This document shows positions 23,130 through 32,391 of a DNA stretch of 64,000 nucleotides, piece by piece. The notes under the pieces were generated by a model. That model saw only the letters and a program-made list of their open reading frames with translations. It was not told where the DNA came from and made no database searches. The DNA lies in assembly GCF_003353065.1 (NCBI RefSeq), contig NZ_CP027806.1:3058501-3122500 (forward strand), written 5' to 3'. This DNA is from Cyclonatronum proteinivorum. Lineage in GTDB: Bacteria; Bacteroidota; Rhodothermia; Balneolales; Cyclonatronaceae. A program made the translations under genes and the position numbers. The first letter of the stretch is position 1. Each line of letters starts with the position of its first letter.

Positions 23130-23395
23130 CAGCCCTGAAAGGGCGATATATCACAGCCCGGGGTGCCACCCACGGGATTGCGGCCCCACACAAATGGAGC
23201 CCTGAAAGGGCGGCATATCATCGGGAGTTGCGTCCCGAATCGTGCGCAACCATTGCGGATACGGCTGATAATGTATTTCGGGAGCCGCACCCGCCTCGCT
23301 CCTTCTTTTCATTACTATTCGGGTTGCACTAAATAACAAAGCCTTCGGTCAGCATTCCCACACCCCGTCCCGCCACCATCGGGGCGCTGAAAGAG
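23130..23395. repeat. REP-like palindromic block, copy 1
   Basis: Contains AGCCCTGAAAGGGC palindromes twice, separated by ACAGCCCGGGGTGCCACCC and ATTGCGGCCCC, and ends in CACCCCGTCCCGCCACCATC. It is largely repeated at 23818-24082. Confidence 0.7.
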
Positions 23396-23817: not shown

Positions 23818-24082
23818 AGCCCTGAAAGGGCGGCATACCACAGCCCGGGGTGCCAACCCCGGGATTGCGGCCCCTCACAAATAGAGCCCTGTAAGGGCGG
23901 CATATCTTCGGGGGTGCGTTTCGAATCGTGCGCAACCATTGCGGATACGGCTGGTAATTTATTTCCGGAGTCGCCCCCGCCTCGCTTCATCCTTTTATAG
24001 CGACTCAGCTTGCACTGAATAACATAGCCTTCGGTCAGCATTTCCACACCCCGTCCCGCCACCATCGGGGCATTGAAAGAGT
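23818..24082. repeat. REP-like palindromic block, copy 2
   Basis: Parallel to the block at 23130-23395, offset by about 688 bp, with the same order of AGCCCTGAAAGGGC, CAGCCCGGGGTGCCAACCCC, AGCCCTGTAAGGGC and a CACCCCGTCCCGCCACCATC end. Together with the adjacent family 2 MITEs it forms a diverged segmental duplication of about 0.65 kb. Confidence 0.7.
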
Positions 24083-25460: not shown

Positions 25461-25928
25461 ATGGCAAGCGTAACCATCCGAAACCTCGACGAAGAAACCA
25501 AGCACCGGCTCAAGATCCGGGCTGCGCAAAATAACCGCTCCCTCGAAGAAGAACTGCGTATCGCCCTGCGGAGTCTTGCCGATAACGGCAGCCATAATAT
25601 GCTGCCTTCGGCTGATGCAGGCTACGAAACTGCGGATGAACCGCAAGCACCGGTTCATCTCGTTAATGACGACCTCGATTTCAGCCCACCCTACACCCCA
25701 AACAAGGAAACCATGTTCAGCGAATACATCCAAATCAGCCCCGAAGTACGGTTCGGGCGGCCTTGCGTGAAAGGCACCCGCATCTCCGTGTATGATGTGC
25801 TCGGCTACCTTGCCTCCGGCATGAGCATCAGCGAAATCACCGAAGATTTTCCGGAGCTTAGTCCGGAAGCCATTCAGGCCTGTCTTCAGTTTGCGGCATC
25901 CCGCGAGCGGCGCATTTTTTCCGTTTAA
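25461..25928 (+). CDS. fused RHH-DUF433 antitoxin
   Basis: 155 residues. Residues 1-40 are a FitA/Arc-like ribbon-helix-helix domain (ASVTIRNLDEETKHRLKIRA, then SLEEELRIALRSLA). A poorly conserved linker follows (41-85). Residues 89-148 are DUF433 (YIQISPEVRFGRPCVKGTRI, then VYDVLGYLASGMSISEITED). DUF433 alone is the usual partner of DUF5615 toxins. The RHH domain presumably binds the operon promoter and DUF433 the toxin. It is followed 12 bp later by the DUF5615 gene. Confidence 0.85.
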   Translation: MASVTIRNLDEETKHRLKIRAAQNNRSLEEELRIALRSLADNGSHNMLPSADAGYETADEPQAPVHLVNDDLDFSPPYTPNKETMFSEYIQISPEVRFGRPCVKGTRISVYDVLGYLASGMSISEITEDFPELSPEAIQACLQFAASRERRIFSV

Positions 25929-25940
25929 GTGCCGGGAGCC

Positions 25941-26285
25941 ATGCAGCTGTTTTTTGATCAGAACATCTCTTACCGGATTCTGCACCGCATCGAACCTTAT
26001 TTCCCGGATACGCGTCATGTGAAAACCGACGGGCTTACCGATGCTACCGATCTTCAGCTCTGGCATCACTGCCGGGAAAACCATTTATGTGTTGTCACTT
26101 TCGATGCCGACTTCATCGACCTGCTCAATCTTTATGGCCCGCCTCCGCCGGTTATCCGGATCAGAACGGGGAATATCAGCACCCGGAACCTTGTGCGGTT
26201 ACTGGCCGAAAAGCGGGACCTGATCCGGGATTTCCTCAGCGGTAAAACCGGTACGCCTCCGGAAGTGCTGGAAATCAGCGGTTAG
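25941..26285 (+). CDS. DUF5615 (Mut7-C-like PIN) toxin
   Basis: 114 residues from the ATG at 25941, which has GGGAG 3 bases upstream; a GTG at 25929 is an alternative. The DUF5615 family (PIN-like nuclease fold) is recognised by MQLFFDQNISYRILHRI and VVTFDADFIDLLN. The acidic residues D6, D55 and D58 could form the metal site. Cleavage of RNA or another nucleic acid is inferred from the family. It is probably silenced by the preceding fused antitoxin. Confidence 0.85.
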   Translation: MQLFFDQNISYRILHRIEPYFPDTRHVKTDGLTDATDLQLWHHCRENHLCVVTFDADFIDLLNLYGPPPPVIRIRTGNISTRNLVRLLAEKRDLIRDFLSGKTGTPPEVLEISG

Positions 26286-26323: not shown

Positions 26324-27022
26324 CTAAATCTGCACGATGCCTTCGAGCCAGGCTTTGCCAATGACGCAGGCAAACAGGCCGGATTCCTCCAAACGTTTGA
26401 GGTCATCGTTGGAGGAGACGCCGCCGCTTGCGATAAAGTTCAGGTCTGTGAACCGCTTTTGGAGGTCGGCATACATGGGCAGGTTGGGGCCGGTCATCAT
26501 GCCGTCGCGGGCGATGTCGGTGCAAAGCACTTCGGTGAGTCCGTAGCTGAGCATAGGCGCGAGCAGTTGTTCGAGGCTGCGGTCATCGGTTTCGAGCCAG
26601 CCTCCGACGGCGACTTTGCCGTCTTTGAGGTCCATCCCAAAGATGCAGCGGCCCGGCCCAAATTCTTCGAGTGCCCGCAACCATTCATCCTGCCGGTTTA
26701 CGGCCATCGAGCTTGAGACGACCCGGTGAATGCCTGCCTGAAGCAGACGCTCGACATCTTCAAAACGACGGATCCCCCCGCCCATTTGCACTTCAAGCGG
26801 CGTTTGCTTCACGATTTGCTCGACCAGCCGCAGGTTCTCAAAATTCCCGTCCCGTGCGCCGTTGAGGTCAACAATGTGCAGGCGGGGTAAATCTTCGCGC
26901 TCGCTGAGGCGGTCTGCAAACGACACGGGGTCATCAGCATACACGGTCACAGCTTCGTAGCTGCCCTGCTTAAGGCGGACAATTTTGCCGTCGTATAAAT
27001 CAATAGCGGGAATCCGGATCAT
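26324..27022 (-). CDS. hisA: HisA, ProFAR isomerase
   Basis: 232-residue TIM barrel. Signatures are IPAIDLYDGKIVRLKQG, GGGIRRFEDVERLL and ASGGVSSNDDL. Asp8 and an Asp near 127 (FGMDLKDG) are the expected catalytic pair. It catalyses the Amadori rearrangement of histidine biosynthesis. It is last in this operon; hisF and hisI/hisE are absent downstream. Confidence 0.96.
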   Translation of the reverse strand: MIRIPAIDLYDGKIVRLKQGSYEAVTVYADDPVSFADRLSEREDLPRLHIVDLNGARDGNFENLRLVEQIVKQTPLEVQMGGGIRRFEDVERLLQAGIHRVVSSSMAVNRQDEWLRALEEFGPGRCIFGMDLKDGKVAVGGWLETDDRSLEQLLAPMLSYGLTEVLCTDIARDGMMTGPNLPMYADLQKRFTDLNFIASGGVSSNDDLKRLEESGLFACVIGKAWLEGIVQI

Positions 27023-27050
27023 AGCTTTTTTTGGAATAATGTCACCGCGA

Positions 27051-27650
27051 TCAGCGGGTTAGGTTGATAAAGTTTAATAGCAGGCGTGCCCCGGCTGTGC
27101 CTGATTTTTCGGGATGGAACTGCACGCCCATTTTGTTGCCCTCGGCAGCCACGGAGGTAAATGTCACACCTGCGTAACTACATGCGCCGATGGTTTGGTC
27201 ACAAAGCGGGGCGTAGTAGCTGTGCACGTAGTAGAAGTAATCGCCCTGACCAATGCCTTCAAGCAGCGGATGTTCCGACTCGAAGGGTTCGACAAAAGTG
27301 TTCCAGCCCATGTGCGGGACCTTGGCGTCGCGGTCGTCGAAGCGCAGCAGTTTGCCGGGAAAGAGCCCCAGACAATCGGTGTCACCTTCCACGCTGTGTT
27401 CGAACAGCAGCTGCATGCCGAGGCAGATGCCGAGCACCGGCAGCGGGGTTTCACGCAGCCAGACATCGAGTCCGGTGGTTTTCAGTGCCTGCATCGCGGC
27501 CTGCGCGTGACCAACCCCGGGGAAAATGATGCCGGAGGAGGCTTCCAGCTTTTGGATGTCGCTTGTAATCTGATAGTCCGCACCGAGCCGTTTGAGGGCG
27601 TTGGAAACGGAGGCCGTGTTTCCGGCGCGGTAGTCGATGATGCTGATCAT
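27051..27650 (-). CDS. hisH: HisH, glutamine amidotransferase subunit
   Basis: 199 residues, class I glutaminase. The nucleophile Cys is in PVLGICLGMQLLFEHS, and the His/Glu pair is in GVQFHPEKSG. It supplies ammonia to HisF, which is not encoded in this window. The start overlaps the hisB stop (TAATG). Confidence 0.96.
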   Translation of the reverse strand: MISIIDYRAGNTASVSNALKRLGADYQITSDIQKLEASSGIIFPGVGHAQAAMQALKTTGLDVWLRETPLPVLGICLGMQLLFEHSVEGDTDCLGLFPGKLLRFDDRDAKVPHMGWNTFVEPFESEHPLLEGIGQGDYFYYVHSYYAPLCDQTIGACSYAGVTFTSVAAEGNKMGVQFHPEKSGTAGARLLLNFINLTR

Positions 27651-28540
27651 TACAGAATTCCTTTGCTGCTCGGGATTTCGAGGCTGCCCGTACGCTTCAC
27701 CGATTGCTTGAGCACAATGGCAAAACCTTTGAACATGGCCTCGATTTTATGGTGATCGTTCTCGCCGGTGACTTCAAAATGCAGGGTGCTTTTGGTGTTC
27801 ATTGCCAGGGAGTAGAAAAAGTGTTTGACCATCTCGGTGGGAACATCGCCCACTTTTTCGCGGCTGAAGTGTACATCAAACACCAGATAGGGCCGGCCGG
27901 AAAGGTCGAGCGCGGTCATGGCGCGGGTTTCGTCCATCGGGAGGACGGAAGCGTATCGGGTGATACCGCGTTTGTCGCCCAAAGCCGCTGAGATGGCGTC
28001 GCCGAGCGCAAGGGCACAGTCTTCGATGGTGTGATGTTCGTCAATATGGAGATCGCCCTTGCAGTGCAGGCGCAAATCTACGTCGCCGTGCCGCGCGATT
28101 TGCTCCAGCATGTGATCAAAAAATCCGAGTCCGGTTTTGATGTCGTGCTTACCGGAGCCATCGAGATTTATTTCGGCTTCGATGTCTGTTTCGCGGGTTG
28201 TGCGGCGTATGCGTCCGATGCGGGGCGGGAACAGCAGCTGATGCAGCAGCGCCTGCCAGTCGGGGGCTGTTCCCGGGGATGCGCCGTCTTGCTGCTGCTG
28301 CAGCAGGCCGCTTTCCGCGGCCAAAATGCGTCGGGTGCCGGACAGTGCCGGATTTTCGGCTTCGGTCAGCTCAAAGGAAAGGTCTTCCCGGCGGAGGCGT
28401 TCAATTAGCAGCTGCGGCGTTTGCGCGTCGAGCAGCAGCGCGGCACCGGCCTCGTGCAGGCGTATCAGAGCACGGAAAGCGAACGGGCGCAGCTCGCTTC
28501 CATCGCTTAGCGCTTCGGCAGAAATAAAAAATCGGGACAT
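27650..28540 (-). CDS. hisB: imidazoleglycerol-phosphate dehydratase with degenerate N-terminal domain
   Basis: 296 residues. The IGPD domain occupies about 107-296 (RTTRETDIEAEINLDGSG, GFFDHMLEQIARHGD, DEHHTIEDCALALG, ENDHHKIEAMFKGF), with the manganese-binding His clusters intact. The N-terminal 106 residues replace the phosphatase domain of bifunctional HisB but are shortened and lack the HAD DxDxT motif (FISAEALSD stands where FIDRDGT is usual). The protein should dehydrate IGP; histidinol-phosphate phosphatase activity is unlikely. Confidence 0.9.
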   Translation of the reverse strand: MSRFFISAEALSDGSELRPFAFRALIRLHEAGAALLLDAQTPQLLIERLRREDLSFELTEAENPALSGTRRILAAESGLLQQQQDGASPGTAPDWQALLHQLLFPPRIGRIRRTTRETDIEAEINLDGSGKHDIKTGLGFFDHMLEQIARHGDVDLRLHCKGDLHIDEHHTIEDCALALGDAISAALGDKRGITRYASVLPMDETRAMTALDLSGRPYLVFDVHFSREKVGDVPTEMVKHFFYSLAMNTKSTLHFEVTGENDHHKIEAMFKGFAIVLKQSVKRTGSLEIPSSKGIL

Positions 28541-28548
28541 GGTAGAAA

Positions 28549-29625
28549 TCAGGTTGTAGGGGATACGATGGCACTCAGCTTCTCAAAAGCGGCCAGCAGA
28601 CGATCGTTTTCTTCGGGCGTGCCTATGGTGACGCGCAGGCCGTCGGTGCAGTGCAGCTGATCGCCGCGGTAGCGCACAATCACTTCTTCCGCGGCAAGCG
28701 CTTTGTACCAGCCGGGGGCATCCTTCACCCTGACCAGCAGAAAATTGGCGTCGCTGGGTTCGACTTTATAAACAGCGGGAAATTTCAGGAGGGCTTCAGC
28801 CAGTCTTTCGCGTTCGGCGAGAATTTGCGCGATCAGTCCGGAGGTCCGCTCCGGAGAGGCAAGCGCTGCAAGCGCGGTTTGCTGGGTGAGCGTATTCACG
28901 TTGTAGGGCGGCTTCACGCGCATCATGTAGCTGATGATGGTTTCGGAGGCAAACGCCATCCCGAGACGGATGCCGGCAAGTCCCCAGGCTTTGGAGAGCG
29001 TCTGCATCACGACCAGGTTCGGGAACTCCCCGAGCCAGCGCAGGGCACTTTCCCCGGCACTGAAATCGATGTAGGCTTCATCCACAATCACAAGCGCGGG
29101 CACCGCTTCGAGCACCTGCCGAATGTGCGCGGCATCGAGCCGGTTGGCCGTCGGATTGTTGGGCGAACACAGGAAAACCAGCTTCGCCCCGGAGGTTTTG
29201 ACGGCTTCAATGACACCTTCGGGGTCAAGGGAAAAATCAGGGTTCAGGGGAGCTTCCACCGTTTGAATGCCCTGAATATCTGCGCTCACTTTGTACATGC
29301 CGTAGGTTGGCGGCGTGATGACCATAGTATCTTCGCCTGACTGACAAAACATGCGGATCAGAATATCGATGGCTTCATCGCTGCCATTTCCCAGAAAAAT
29401 CTGCGACGGCTTTACGTCTTTCAGCTCCGAAAGACGTGCGCGCAGGGCTTCAAAATGGGGATCGGGATAGCGGTTGAGTCGGGCTTCGGGATGCTGTTCC
29501 GGGGCGAACGGATTCTCGTTGGCATCAAGCAGAATGCCGGTTTTGAAGTCGTCGCGGGCGGAGCGGTAGGGTTTGAGGGAGCGGATGTTGGGCCGTAAAA
29601 GCGGAAGCGTATCAAAGGCGGACAT
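28549..29625 (-). CDS. hisC: HisC, histidinol-phosphate aminotransferase
   Basis: 358 residues, fold type I PLP enzyme. Motifs: FLGNGSDEAIDILIR, CSPNNPTANRL, VIVDEAYIDFSAGES, and the PLP lysine in MQTLSKAWGLAGIRLG. It converts imidazole-acetol phosphate to histidinol phosphate with glutamate. In the operon it lies between hisD and hisB. Confidence 0.96.
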   Translation of the reverse strand: MSAFDTLPLLRPNIRSLKPYRSARDDFKTGILLDANENPFAPEQHPEARLNRYPDPHFEALRARLSELKDVKPSQIFLGNGSDEAIDILIRMFCQSGEDTMVITPPTYGMYKVSADIQGIQTVEAPLNPDFSLDPEGVIEAVKTSGAKLVFLCSPNNPTANRLDAAHIRQVLEAVPALVIVDEAYIDFSAGESALRWLGEFPNLVVMQTLSKAWGLAGIRLGMAFASETIISYMMRVKPPYNVNTLTQQTALAALASPERTSGLIAQILAERERLAEALLKFPAVYKVEPSDANFLLVRVKDAPGWYKALAAEEVIVRYRGDQLHCTDGLRVTIGTPEENDRLLAAFEKLSAIVSPTT

Positions 29626-29655
29626 CAGTAAATTTCGGGAATTTTGAACTTTGGT

Positions 29656-30945
29656 TTAGGAAAGGTGGCGGAGACGGCGGCTAACGGCCTGACGGTGTGC
29701 TTCGAGGCCTTCCGCCTGTGCCATGACCTCGACCGTTGGGCCCAGTTCCCGGAGTCCGTCAGGAGTGAGTTCCTGAAAGGTCACCATTTTATAGAAGGAA
29801 TCGAGGGAGACGCCGCTGTACATGGCTGCGTAGCCGCTTGTCGGCAGGGTGTGATTGGTGCCGGAGGCGTAATCGCCGGCGCTTTCGGGCGTCCAGTTTC
29901 CCAGAAAAACCGAGCCGGCGTTGATGATGCCCGGTACGTACTCCGCGGCATTTTCTGACGCGATGATGAGGTGCTCGGGCGCCCAAAGGTTGGAAAATAC
30001 AAGGGCCTGGGCACGGTCTTCCACAAGCACAGCGCTGCTGTTGGCGAGGGCTTTACGGGCGGCTTCCATCCGGGGCAGGGACTGCAGCTGACGCTCGGTC
30101 TCGGTGAGGGTCTCCTCAATAAATCCCGCACTTTGCGCCACAAGCACAACCTGTGAATCGGCGCCATGTTCCGCCTGAGAGAGCAGGTCAGCGGCCACAA
30201 ATTCCGGGTTCGCGGTTTCGTCCGCAATCACCAGCACTTCGGAAGGTCCCGCGGGCATGTCGATTGCCACAACCGCATCAGACTGCGAAACCAGCATTTT
30301 CGCGCAGGTGACGTATTGATTTCCGGGACCAAATATTTTGTGCACTTTGGGGACGCTCTCTGTGCCGTAGGCCAGCGCAGCAACGGCCTGCGCGCCGCCC
30401 GCCTTTAGGATGTGCGTGATGCCCGTCAGCGCGGCGCAGTACAGAATTTCCGGTGCAATGGCGCCGTCTTGCTGCGGTGGCGTTGCCATGATACGGGTCG
30501 GACATCCGGCAATCATGGCCGGCACCCCGAGCATGAGCACGGTTGAGGGCAGCACCGCTGTGCCACCGGGCACGTAGAGTCCGACGGCTTCAACGGCCCG
30601 TGCTTCGCGCCTGCACACGACGCCCGGCATGGTCTCCACGACCAGATCGCCCGGTTTTTGTGCCATGTGAAAGGCATAAATATTGGCAAAAGCCCGGTCA
30701 AAGGCCGCTTTCTTATCTTCCGAAAGCGGCACATCTTCCGCGGCAGGGACCGGTATCACAAGCGGATCGGGGAGAAAACCGTCAAATTTCTGCGTATATG
30801 ACTGCAGGGCCACATCCCCCTGTGTTTTCACTGCCTGAATAATTTCCCGAACGGTTGGTTCAATCCGGTCGAAATCCACGGCTGTGCGTTTGCAGAGCGC
30901 TTTGATTTCTTCTGCGTTCAGGTTTTTATACGTGAAGACTTTCAT
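29656..30945 (-). CDS. hisD: HisD, histidinol dehydrogenase
   Basis: 429 residues, normal length. Motifs: GLYVPGGTAVLPSTVLMLGV, FGPGNQYVTCAKML, VAIDMPAGPSEVLVIADETA, and EHLIIASENA. The His/Glu zinc ligands are in SQAEHGADSQ and APEHLI. It oxidises histidinol to histidine in two NAD-dependent steps. Confidence 0.96.
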   Translation of the reverse strand: MKVFTYKNLNAEEIKALCKRTAVDFDRIEPTVREIIQAVKTQGDVALQSYTQKFDGFLPDPLVIPVPAAEDVPLSEDKKAAFDRAFANIYAFHMAQKPGDLVVETMPGVVCRREARAVEAVGLYVPGGTAVLPSTVLMLGVPAMIAGCPTRIMATPPQQDGAIAPEILYCAALTGITHILKAGGAQAVAALAYGTESVPKVHKIFGPGNQYVTCAKMLVSQSDAVVAIDMPAGPSEVLVIADETANPEFVAADLLSQAEHGADSQVVLVAQSAGFIEETLTETERQLQSLPRMEAARKALANSSAVLVEDRAQALVFSNLWAPEHLIIASENAAEYVPGIINAGSVFLGNWTPESAGDYASGTNHTLPTSGYAAMYSGVSLDSFYKMVTFQELTPDGLRELGPTVEVMAQAEGLEAHRQAVSRRLRHLS

Positions 30946-30957
30946 TATACATCCCGC

Positions 30958-31827
30958 TTAGTTGATCATATTTTGGATGGGAAGCATCACAATGCCCGTT
31001 GCCCCGGCAGCTTTGAGCTCTTCCATCACTTCCCAGAATTTCGCAATCGGAATTACGGTGTGTATGGCAATCATGCTCGGGTCGGCGAGCGGCAGCACGG
31101 TCGGACTGTTGAGCGCGGGAATGATGCGGGTGATGGTATCAAGCGCTTCCTTCGGGGCATTCATCATGATGTAGCGGCTGTTTTCGGCAAGCAGCTGCCC
31201 TTCGATCCGGACGAGGAATTTCTCAATGAGGTCAACTTTGTGCTGCGGCAGCGGCTTGTTGGTACGGATGAGCTGCGACTGACTTTGCAGGATGGTCTCG
31301 AGTTCGCGCAATCCGTTGGTTTTGAGTGTACTGCCGGTCGAAACAAGGTCACAGATGGCGTCAGCGACATCAAGGCGGGGCGTGATTTCCACTGCGCCTG
31401 AAATTTTGATGATGTGCACATCAAGCCCAAGGGAATCAAAAAACTTGCGGGTAAGCACCGGGTAACTTGTGGCAATGCGCCTGCCCCCTAACTCCTTAGC
31501 CGAGTTGATGTTCCGGCTTACGGGGCTCGCAATCGAAAGACGGCAATGACCAAAATCGAGGTCTTTTAAAATGGTGATATCGGCCTGTGTTTCGAGGGTA
31601 ACATTTGCCCCGACAACACCGAGGTCGCAGATGCCGTCCTGCACATACTCGGGAATGTCATCATCACGGATGAGCAGCAGTTCAACATCAAAATTAAGGG
31701 CTTTTACGAGCAGCCGGTTTTTGTAACCATCGAAGCGGATGCCGATGTTTTCGAGCAGGGTAATGGTTTTTTCTGTGAGCCTTCCGCTTTTTTGGATGGC
31801 AATTCGCAGGGTTTGTACAGGTTCCAA
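30958..31827 (-). CDS. hisG: HisG, ATP phosphoribosyltransferase, long form
   Basis: 289 residues, so the long form with a C-terminal regulatory ACT-like domain (about 215-289, ending PIAKFWEVMEELKAAGATGI), giving feedback inhibition by histidine. The catalytic core includes IRDDDIPEYVQDGICDLGVV, and ISGAVEITPRLDVADAICDLV. It begins with a TTG codon. First gene of the operon, preceded by the leader and terminator hairpin. Confidence 0.94.
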   Translation of the reverse strand: MEPVQTLRIAIQKSGRLTEKTITLLENIGIRFDGYKNRLLVKALNFDVELLLIRDDDIPEYVQDGICDLGVVGANVTLETQADITILKDLDFGHCRLSIASPVSRNINSAKELGGRRIATSYPVLTRKFFDSLGLDVHIIKISGAVEITPRLDVADAICDLVSTGSTLKTNGLRELETILQSQSQLIRTNKPLPQHKVDLIEKFLVRIEGQLLAENSRYIMMNAPKEALDTITRIIPALNSPTVLPLADPSMIAIHTVIPIAKFWEVMEELKAAGATGIVMLPIQNMIN

Positions 31828-31863: not shown

Positions 31864-31904
31864 CAAAAAAGCCGGTCTGATTTCAGGATAGCGAATCAGC
31901 CGGC
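31864..31904 (-). terminator. his attenuator terminator hairpin
   Basis: On the minus strand GCCGGCTGATT pairs with AATCAGACCGGC (one bulge), followed by six T. It is between the leader ORF stop (31944) and hisG (31827). The segment GTCTGAT at 31963-31957 (end of the leader ORF) is the exact complement of ATCAGAC in the 3' arm (31881-31875), so the two structures are mutually exclusive. Confidence 0.8.
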
Positions 31905-31943
31905 AGTCATCTCGGTATTAAACGAAGCGTATTAGATTTACGT

Positions 31944-32135
31944 TCAGGATGGGGTCATCAGACTGACAGGCTTAGTGCACCACGCATGATGCAGGTGATG
32001 ATGACGGATACGATGATGTGTCGATGCCTGGGCCTTATCCCCTATCAGACAAATTTCATACACGCGCCCGGTCATTGCCTGCGCGGGAACAGCTTTGAAG
32101 TACAGCGTATCGGTAAAGTTTTCATATTTTCTCAT
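31944..32135 (-). CDS. His-rich leader peptide of the his operon
   Basis: Up to 63 residues from the ATG at 32135, or 43 from an internal ATG at 32075. The segment THHRIRHHHLHHAWC holds seven His codons within eleven (positions 40-50 of the long form; bases about 32018-31986). It ends just before the terminator hairpin and lies directly upstream of hisG in the same strand. This is the arrangement of a ribosome-mediated his attenuator. The peptide itself is probably not functional beyond its translation. Confidence 0.75.
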   Translation of the reverse strand: MRKYENFTDTLYFKAVPAQAMTGRVYEICLIGDKAQASTHHRIRHHHLHHAWCTKPVSLMTPS

Positions 32136-32391
32136 GGCTGCGAATATAGTCAGATTAAGACCACCAATTCATGCTGTCTTCAAACGCAAAACATCTCTTT
32201 ACAAATGCTGCCAAAGCTCTGAGTTTCACTTCGAAAAACCGCAGTTCAGGCCCCGGTGAAGACCGAAGCCCGTGTCACCCTACTCCTTATTCACACCTGT
32301 GAATGGCAAAATCTCAGGCGCGCTCAACTTCAAAATGAGGCGATAATTTGCTATTTTAACCAACTTTGCAAAAAACGATCTAACCACCTAC
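32136..32391. other. divergent intergenic region between the his leader and lepA
   Basis: About 256 bp. AT-rich stretches on the left (ACTATATT-like on the minus strand, about 15 bp upstream of the leader ATG) could be the his promoter. No other feature is recognised. Confidence 0.4.

Follow-up and report, generated by a model that had tools for sequence, protein, structure and literature searches.

A probable histidine attenuator upstream of the hisGDCBHA operon of Cyclonatronum proteinivorum, with His-rich leaders across Balneolales

The genome of C. proteinivorum, whose nearest relatives are Balneolales, is a single contig of 4.29 Mb. We analyzed a 64-kb stretch of it (the window), which contains a his operon on the minus strand, where all the features of its leader also lie. 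The operon consists of hisG (30958-31827, TIGR00070), whose TTG start codon at 31827 alternates with GTG at the same codon in relatives, and of hisD, hisC, hisB, hisH, and hisA (26324-30945; TIGR00069, TIGR01141, PRK00951, TIGR01855, and TIGR00007, respectively). The divergent lepA is upstream of the leader. In HisB (27650-28540, minus strand), the IGPD domain is preceded by an N-terminal extension of about 105 residues that matches nothing in Pfam. Elsewhere in the genome, about 850 kb from the main operon, hisF (G000:C1:2236899-2237666) has a hisIE-like ORF beside it; a second leader considered at this site was dropped, with no His-rich leader directly upstream of hisF. For comparison with branched-chain leaders, the acetolactate synthase large subunit was sought, and none was found above the cut-off. 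Directly beyond the end of the operon, a FitA-like RHH fused to DUF433 precedes a DUF5615 protein (25461-26285, plus strand), likely forming a toxin-antitoxin pair. Acido-Lenti-1 RNA (RF01687) has 57 matches in the genome, two of them in the window (23818-23863 and 23131-23176, both minus strand). Many of these form pairs on opposite strands, separated by about 140-190 nt, and a Y1_Tnp (RAYT-like) gene (G000:C1:2323755-2324090) is flanked by several of them. In this genome Acido-Lenti-1 resembles a dispersed element of the REP/BIME type, instead of or in addition to an sRNA.

Upstream of hisG and on the same strand, an ORF of 63 codons extends from an ATG at 32135 to a TGA stop at 31946-31944 and reads MRKYENFTDTLYFKAVPAQAMTGRVYEICLIGDKAQASTHHRIRHHHLHHAWCTKPVSLMTPS. 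Seven of the 11 codons at 32018-31986 encode His, precisely as a first-pass annotation of this DNA had described, with correct coordinates and letters. When the 330 nt preceding hisG were dinucleotide-shuffled, the count never exceeded five His codons in 11, seven being reached in 0 of 2,000 shuffles, and no other run of at least six in 11 exists in any of the six frames of the window. The leader is thus rich in codons for the amino acid of the operon it precedes, as are the leaders of amino-acid attenuators, and this His-rich ORF probably acts as a histidine gauge, with the His run as the sensor, deciding whether transcription goes on. The folding energy of the 276-nt leader as a whole is unremarkable (z 0.51). 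A hairpin within the His-codon region (P1), which by eye appears conserved in Balneolaceae, was dropped because its strength does not exceed that of synonymously shuffled sequence (z -0.8 and -1.1).

A -7 promoter box of the TAnnTTTG type (TATATTCG, 32141-32148) is found immediately upstream of the leader, its TATATT separated from the ATG by 7 nt, which places the inferred transcription start at about 32137 ± 3, at or beside the start codon. This spacing is general. In 66 of 80 Balneolales leaders, TAnnTT is found 5-8 nt (mostly 6 or 7) before an in-frame ATG or GTG, compared with 21 of 160 control frames. This makes a leaderless, or almost leaderless, leader mRNA probable. The promoter consensus of the aligned Balneolales leaders, TTtG-N20-TAnnTT, agrees with the Bacteroides -33/-7 consensus as quoted in PMC7366714; the -33 element of the window is off-register (ATTGG). 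Leaderless transcripts are rare in this group, 5' UTRs shorter than 10 nt amounting to about 3.7% in B. thetaiotaomicron (PMC7366714) and leaderless mRNAs to 5.5% in F. psychrophilum (PMC9723704). There is nevertheless a precedent for a leaderless attenuator in Sinorhizobium meliloti trpL (PMC7298713). The first-pass annotation had named a transcription start downstream of the leader ORF as an observation that would speak against attenuation. From the leader stop to hisG there is no TAnnTT box, the sole one in 32391-31826 being that at 32148, so the DNA gives no sign of such a start.

To assess conservation, regions upstream of hisG were sampled from 110 loci and then from 75 more. In the first set, about 70 of 87 distinct upstream regions have, in the 330 nt before hisG, a stretch of 12 codons of which at least four encode His. 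The merged sets amount to 99 loci, with about 80 from Balneolales (including L147, which is probably misgrouped and probably has no true leader). Those outside this order, with order names inferred from kinship labels, include 10 Rhodothermales loci in which a leader and a terminator (type GGCATTCCGGTCG...CCGGGATGCCTTTTTT) precede hisG, and six Ignavibacteria with His-rich leaders and a terminator of the type CCCCGGC...GTCGGGGTTTTTT. The leader is thus kept upstream of the operon in relatives, being lost or shortened in some Balneolales, and the peptides have largely diverged apart from their His codons. At L012, a hisG relative with 70% identity, a strong T-run hairpin precedes hisG and no His leader was detected in the right place. 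Small His-rich proteins exist, and the ORF could in principle encode a functional, e.g. metal-binding, peptide that is merely next to hisG. We consider this extremely improbable, in view of the absence of peptide conservation beyond the His codons, a leader start tied to the operon promoter, and a terminator at the same place in Ignavibacteria and Rhodothermales. Although his attenuation had seemed out of place in such a lineage when the DNA was first annotated, the distribution of these leaders across Balneolales, Rhodothermales, and Ignavibacteria indicates that the His attenuator is standard there and no oddity of this genome. The simplest reading would be that the element is old in the class.

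Between the leader and hisG, at 31904-31862, there is an intrinsic terminator, GCCGGCTGATT...AATCAGACCGGC + TTTTTTGTT, composed of a hairpin (3:4, 31904-31871) and a T-run (TTTTTTGTT, 31870-31862, read from the sequence). The folded stretch has an energy of -16.6 kcal/mol and the hairpin alone -15.4 kcal/mol, which none of 20 shuffles equaled, bearing out the T-run terminator noted earlier at this place. The sister species (genome G005, locus L002) also has a terminator (-17.0), although within the genus neither its place nor its sequence is conserved. An intrinsic terminator between the leader and the first gene, as in a classical attenuator, is therefore found in the window and the sister species, but not in most other Balneolales.

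What might prevent this terminator from forming? Just 3' of the His run, segment 2 (D, AGCC-T-G-T-CAGTC, 31972-31961), the candidate 5' arm of an antiterminator, can pair with segment 3 (E, GACTGC-C-GGCT, 31908-31898), which overlaps the 5' arm of the terminator. This classical 2:3 pairing has an energy of -14.4 kcal/mol, and the sister species has an equivalent (CCGGCTG with CAGCCGG, -14.6). In its loop are a small hairpin seen in the regional minimum-energy fold (GATG-ACCC-CATC, 31959-31948) and a stop-codon hairpin, P2 (TGAACGTA / TACG-C-TTCG, 31946-31923). The first-pass annotation had proposed a different antiterminator, in which GTCTGAT (31963-31957) pairs with the 3' arm of the terminator (31881-31875). 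The complementarity is indeed exact, and a 7-base match to this arm arises in only 54 of 2,000 shuffles (2.7%). Upon folding, however, that pairing reaches -7.7 kcal/mol and is outdone by pairing with the 5' arm, which forms earlier in transcription and suits the co-transcriptional order. Moreover, while relatives keep the His run, the GTCTGAT pairing is absent from the sister species, where at most four bases match, and we regard this version of the switch as highly unlikely.

When folding was followed stepwise along the growing RNA with the ribosome stalled on the His codons, the 5' arm of the terminator was sequestered with a probability of 0.83-0.89 until the 3' arm emerged; a ribosome placed at the stop lowered this to about 0.3. 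In a second calculation, the two ribosome positions gave 0.88 and 0.28, respectively, and when the last 13 codons were recoded synonymously, nine of 200 versions equaled the observed 0.88, which is marginal. As a bare duplex, D:E is no better than chance, being matched by 58-68% of shuffles, and once the 3' arm is present equilibrium folding favors the terminator at every ribosome position reported, so the antiterminator would have to be kinetic. On these three counts, the antiterminator is plausible in this species but undemonstrated. The lack of individual significance of D:E and the equilibrium preference for the terminator are also what would be seen if leader and terminator lowered operon expression constitutively, with no switch and a non-regulatory His-rich peptide. 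This is nonetheless very unlikely, considering that before hisG in three lineages the His codons alone are preserved in otherwise diverged peptides. We also considered, and set aside, translational attenuation by occlusion of the hisG start, around which the mean unpaired probability, computed without a shuffle control, is 0.54-0.65 and no dedicated sequestering hairpin was seen.

Taken together, the leader, its His codons, the placement of the promoter, the terminator, and the conservation of the leader, all of which are borne out by sequence and comparison, make it very probable that the window contains a classic, ribosome-mediated transcription attenuator of the hisGDCBHA operon. This is the anatomy recognized at the outset, a His-codon leader and a terminator before hisG, and it recurs in relatives. 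In the mechanism that we propose, transcription would start at or beside the leader ATG, and a ribosome would translate the leader behind RNA polymerase. With ample charged tRNA-His, the ribosome would get to the stop and cover 31972-31961, the terminator at 31904-31862 would form, and transcription would end short of hisG. If charged tRNA-His were scarce, the ribosome would stall on the His run at 32018-31986, leaving 31972-31961 to pair with the 5' arm of the terminator at 31908-31898 and enclose the stop-codon hairpin at 31946-31923. With its 5' arm taken, the terminator would not form, and the polymerase would read into hisG. For this species, we infer the stall, the mutual exclusivity of the hairpins, and the effect on expression.

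The pairing of the leader end with sequence past the stop, of which D:E is the case in the window, and P2 were assessed across clades, with z-scores whose significance is overstated because kin sequences are treated as independent. In favor of the attenuator, the former is significant in Ignavibacteria (z -7.1), the clade of loci L094-L098 (z -8.8), Rhodohalobacter-type (MRTLD-type) Balneolaceae (z -5.4), and held-out sets (z -3.8 and -4.3); it is weak in the window's own family (z -1.5). P2 is stronger than shuffled downstream sequence in the window's own family (z -4.7), is supported in most other Balneolales clades, and is weak in a held-out non-Fodinibius set (z -1.6). The possibility that P2 is a DNA operator rather than an RNA hairpin was rejected because the spacing of its arms varies widely, unlike that of a dimer operator. 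From the leader end to hisG in L095-L098, a hairpin of about -28 kcal/mol spans the leader stop codon, with an outer helix of 12-13 bp (GGGGATTTGTGC/GCGCAAATCCCC). Its 3' strand can alternatively pair farther 3' (GCGCAAAT/ATTTGCGC in L095), giving mutually exclusive hairpins with no U-tract.

The uneven distribution of terminators raises the question of how the leader would be read out elsewhere. In a single scan between leader and hisG, terminators were found in six of nine members of the window's own family (where their positions differ and their sequences are unrelated) and in all six Ignavibacteria, but in 0/22, 0/15, 1/6, and 0/5 members of four other leader-keeping Balneolales groups (about 1/48). 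The linker of the two largest of these groups contains 7-8% G and 24-26% C; in 84 upstream regions taken as controls, G makes up 16.6% and C 18.9%. This rut-type composition, C-rich and G-poor, is a feature of two Balneolaceae clades and not of the window's own family, whose linker has 13.6% G and is not especially G-poor. In terminator-less Balneolales, the stop-spanning hairpin together with a linker that is mostly C-rich and G-poor suggests that the switch may be read out by Rho. Two Rho RNA-binding matches are present in the C. proteinivorum genome, in separate open frames of 419 and 764 codons (G000:C1:1154225-1154434 and 1744489-1744707).

It could even be that the stop-codon hairpin and Rho are the conserved switch throughout, with the intrinsic terminator of the window a late, strengthening addition. 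A finished leader would expose C-rich single-stranded RNA to Rho, whereas a His stall would let the hairpin cover it. The conservation of the stop-codon hairpin, the near absence of terminators in the other leader-keeping clades, the composition of the linker in two of them, and the Rho matches are all in keeping with this. We nevertheless find it unlikely for the window, since the linker of its own family lacks the composition, the action of Rho is unreadable from sequence, and the same scan finds a terminator at only 4 of 20 convergent gene ends, so that these genomes may make little use of canonical terminators overall. A further reading, which we hold to be possible rather than probable, concerns the relatives. 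Balneolaceae and related Balneolales would have a leaderless His-codon attenuator that lost the intrinsic terminator, its only conserved RNA switch being the stop-codon hairpin, which would form on a His stall and hide the start of the C-rich, G-poor linker from Rho; the lineage of the window would have retained or regained a terminator.

These leaders extend His attenuation, in a form that can be tested experimentally, to a whole class beyond the enterobacterial textbook case, and provide many candidates for leader mRNAs that are leaderless. They also form a natural series, from a classical terminator (Ignavibacteria and Rhodothermales) through shifting terminators (the window's family) to none (most Balneolaceae), in which one can ask how an attenuator exchanges its output stage yet retains its sensor.

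The closest textbook relative is the enterobacterial his attenuator (Rfam His_leader; E. coli hisL), which likewise has a His-codon leader, a terminator before hisG, and a candidate 2:3 antiterminator. Compared with hisL, the leader in the window is longer (63 codons), with interrupted His codons, no expected 5' UTR, and a Bacteroidota-type promoter, and there is an extra stop-codon hairpin inside the antiterminator loop. The Rfam search advised in the first-pass annotation gave no match of any leader model to the window leader, whether the gathering score or an E value as high as 5 was taken as the limit. Vitreschak and colleagues (2004) are said to have listed candidates in Bacteroidetes/Chlorobi as well. 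The recently described Firmicutes his attenuators, for which comparison predicted a His leader, a terminator, and an antiterminator (PMC9413887), consist of the same parts, in independent lineages and with independent sequences. Within the same broad group, amino-acid operons in Flavobacterium psychrophilum have been inferred to be attenuated through leader peptides encoded upstream of them (PMC9723704), from strong clues and in less detail than here; the available text of that paper makes no mention of Balneolales. The attenuator transcript of S. meliloti trpL begins at the ATG (PMC7298713), as proposed here, but responds to Trp and is alphaproteobacterial, whereas the leaderless start in Balneolales is deduced from promoter spacing alone. 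Rho-dependent leader attenuators of the tna and mgtA type depend on Rho and on a C-rich, G-poor, unstructured rut region; two Balneolaceae clades show that base composition, and the window's own family does not. Like the Balneolaceae relatives, the Mycobacterium cys leaders are conserved peptides with no terminator hairpin, for which Rho was suggested from poly-pyrimidine stretches (PMC1262725); these concern Cys in Actinobacteria, with no conserved hairpin found, while the window does have a terminator. Set against these systems, it is the terminator-less, leaderless form in Balneolaceae that might be new.
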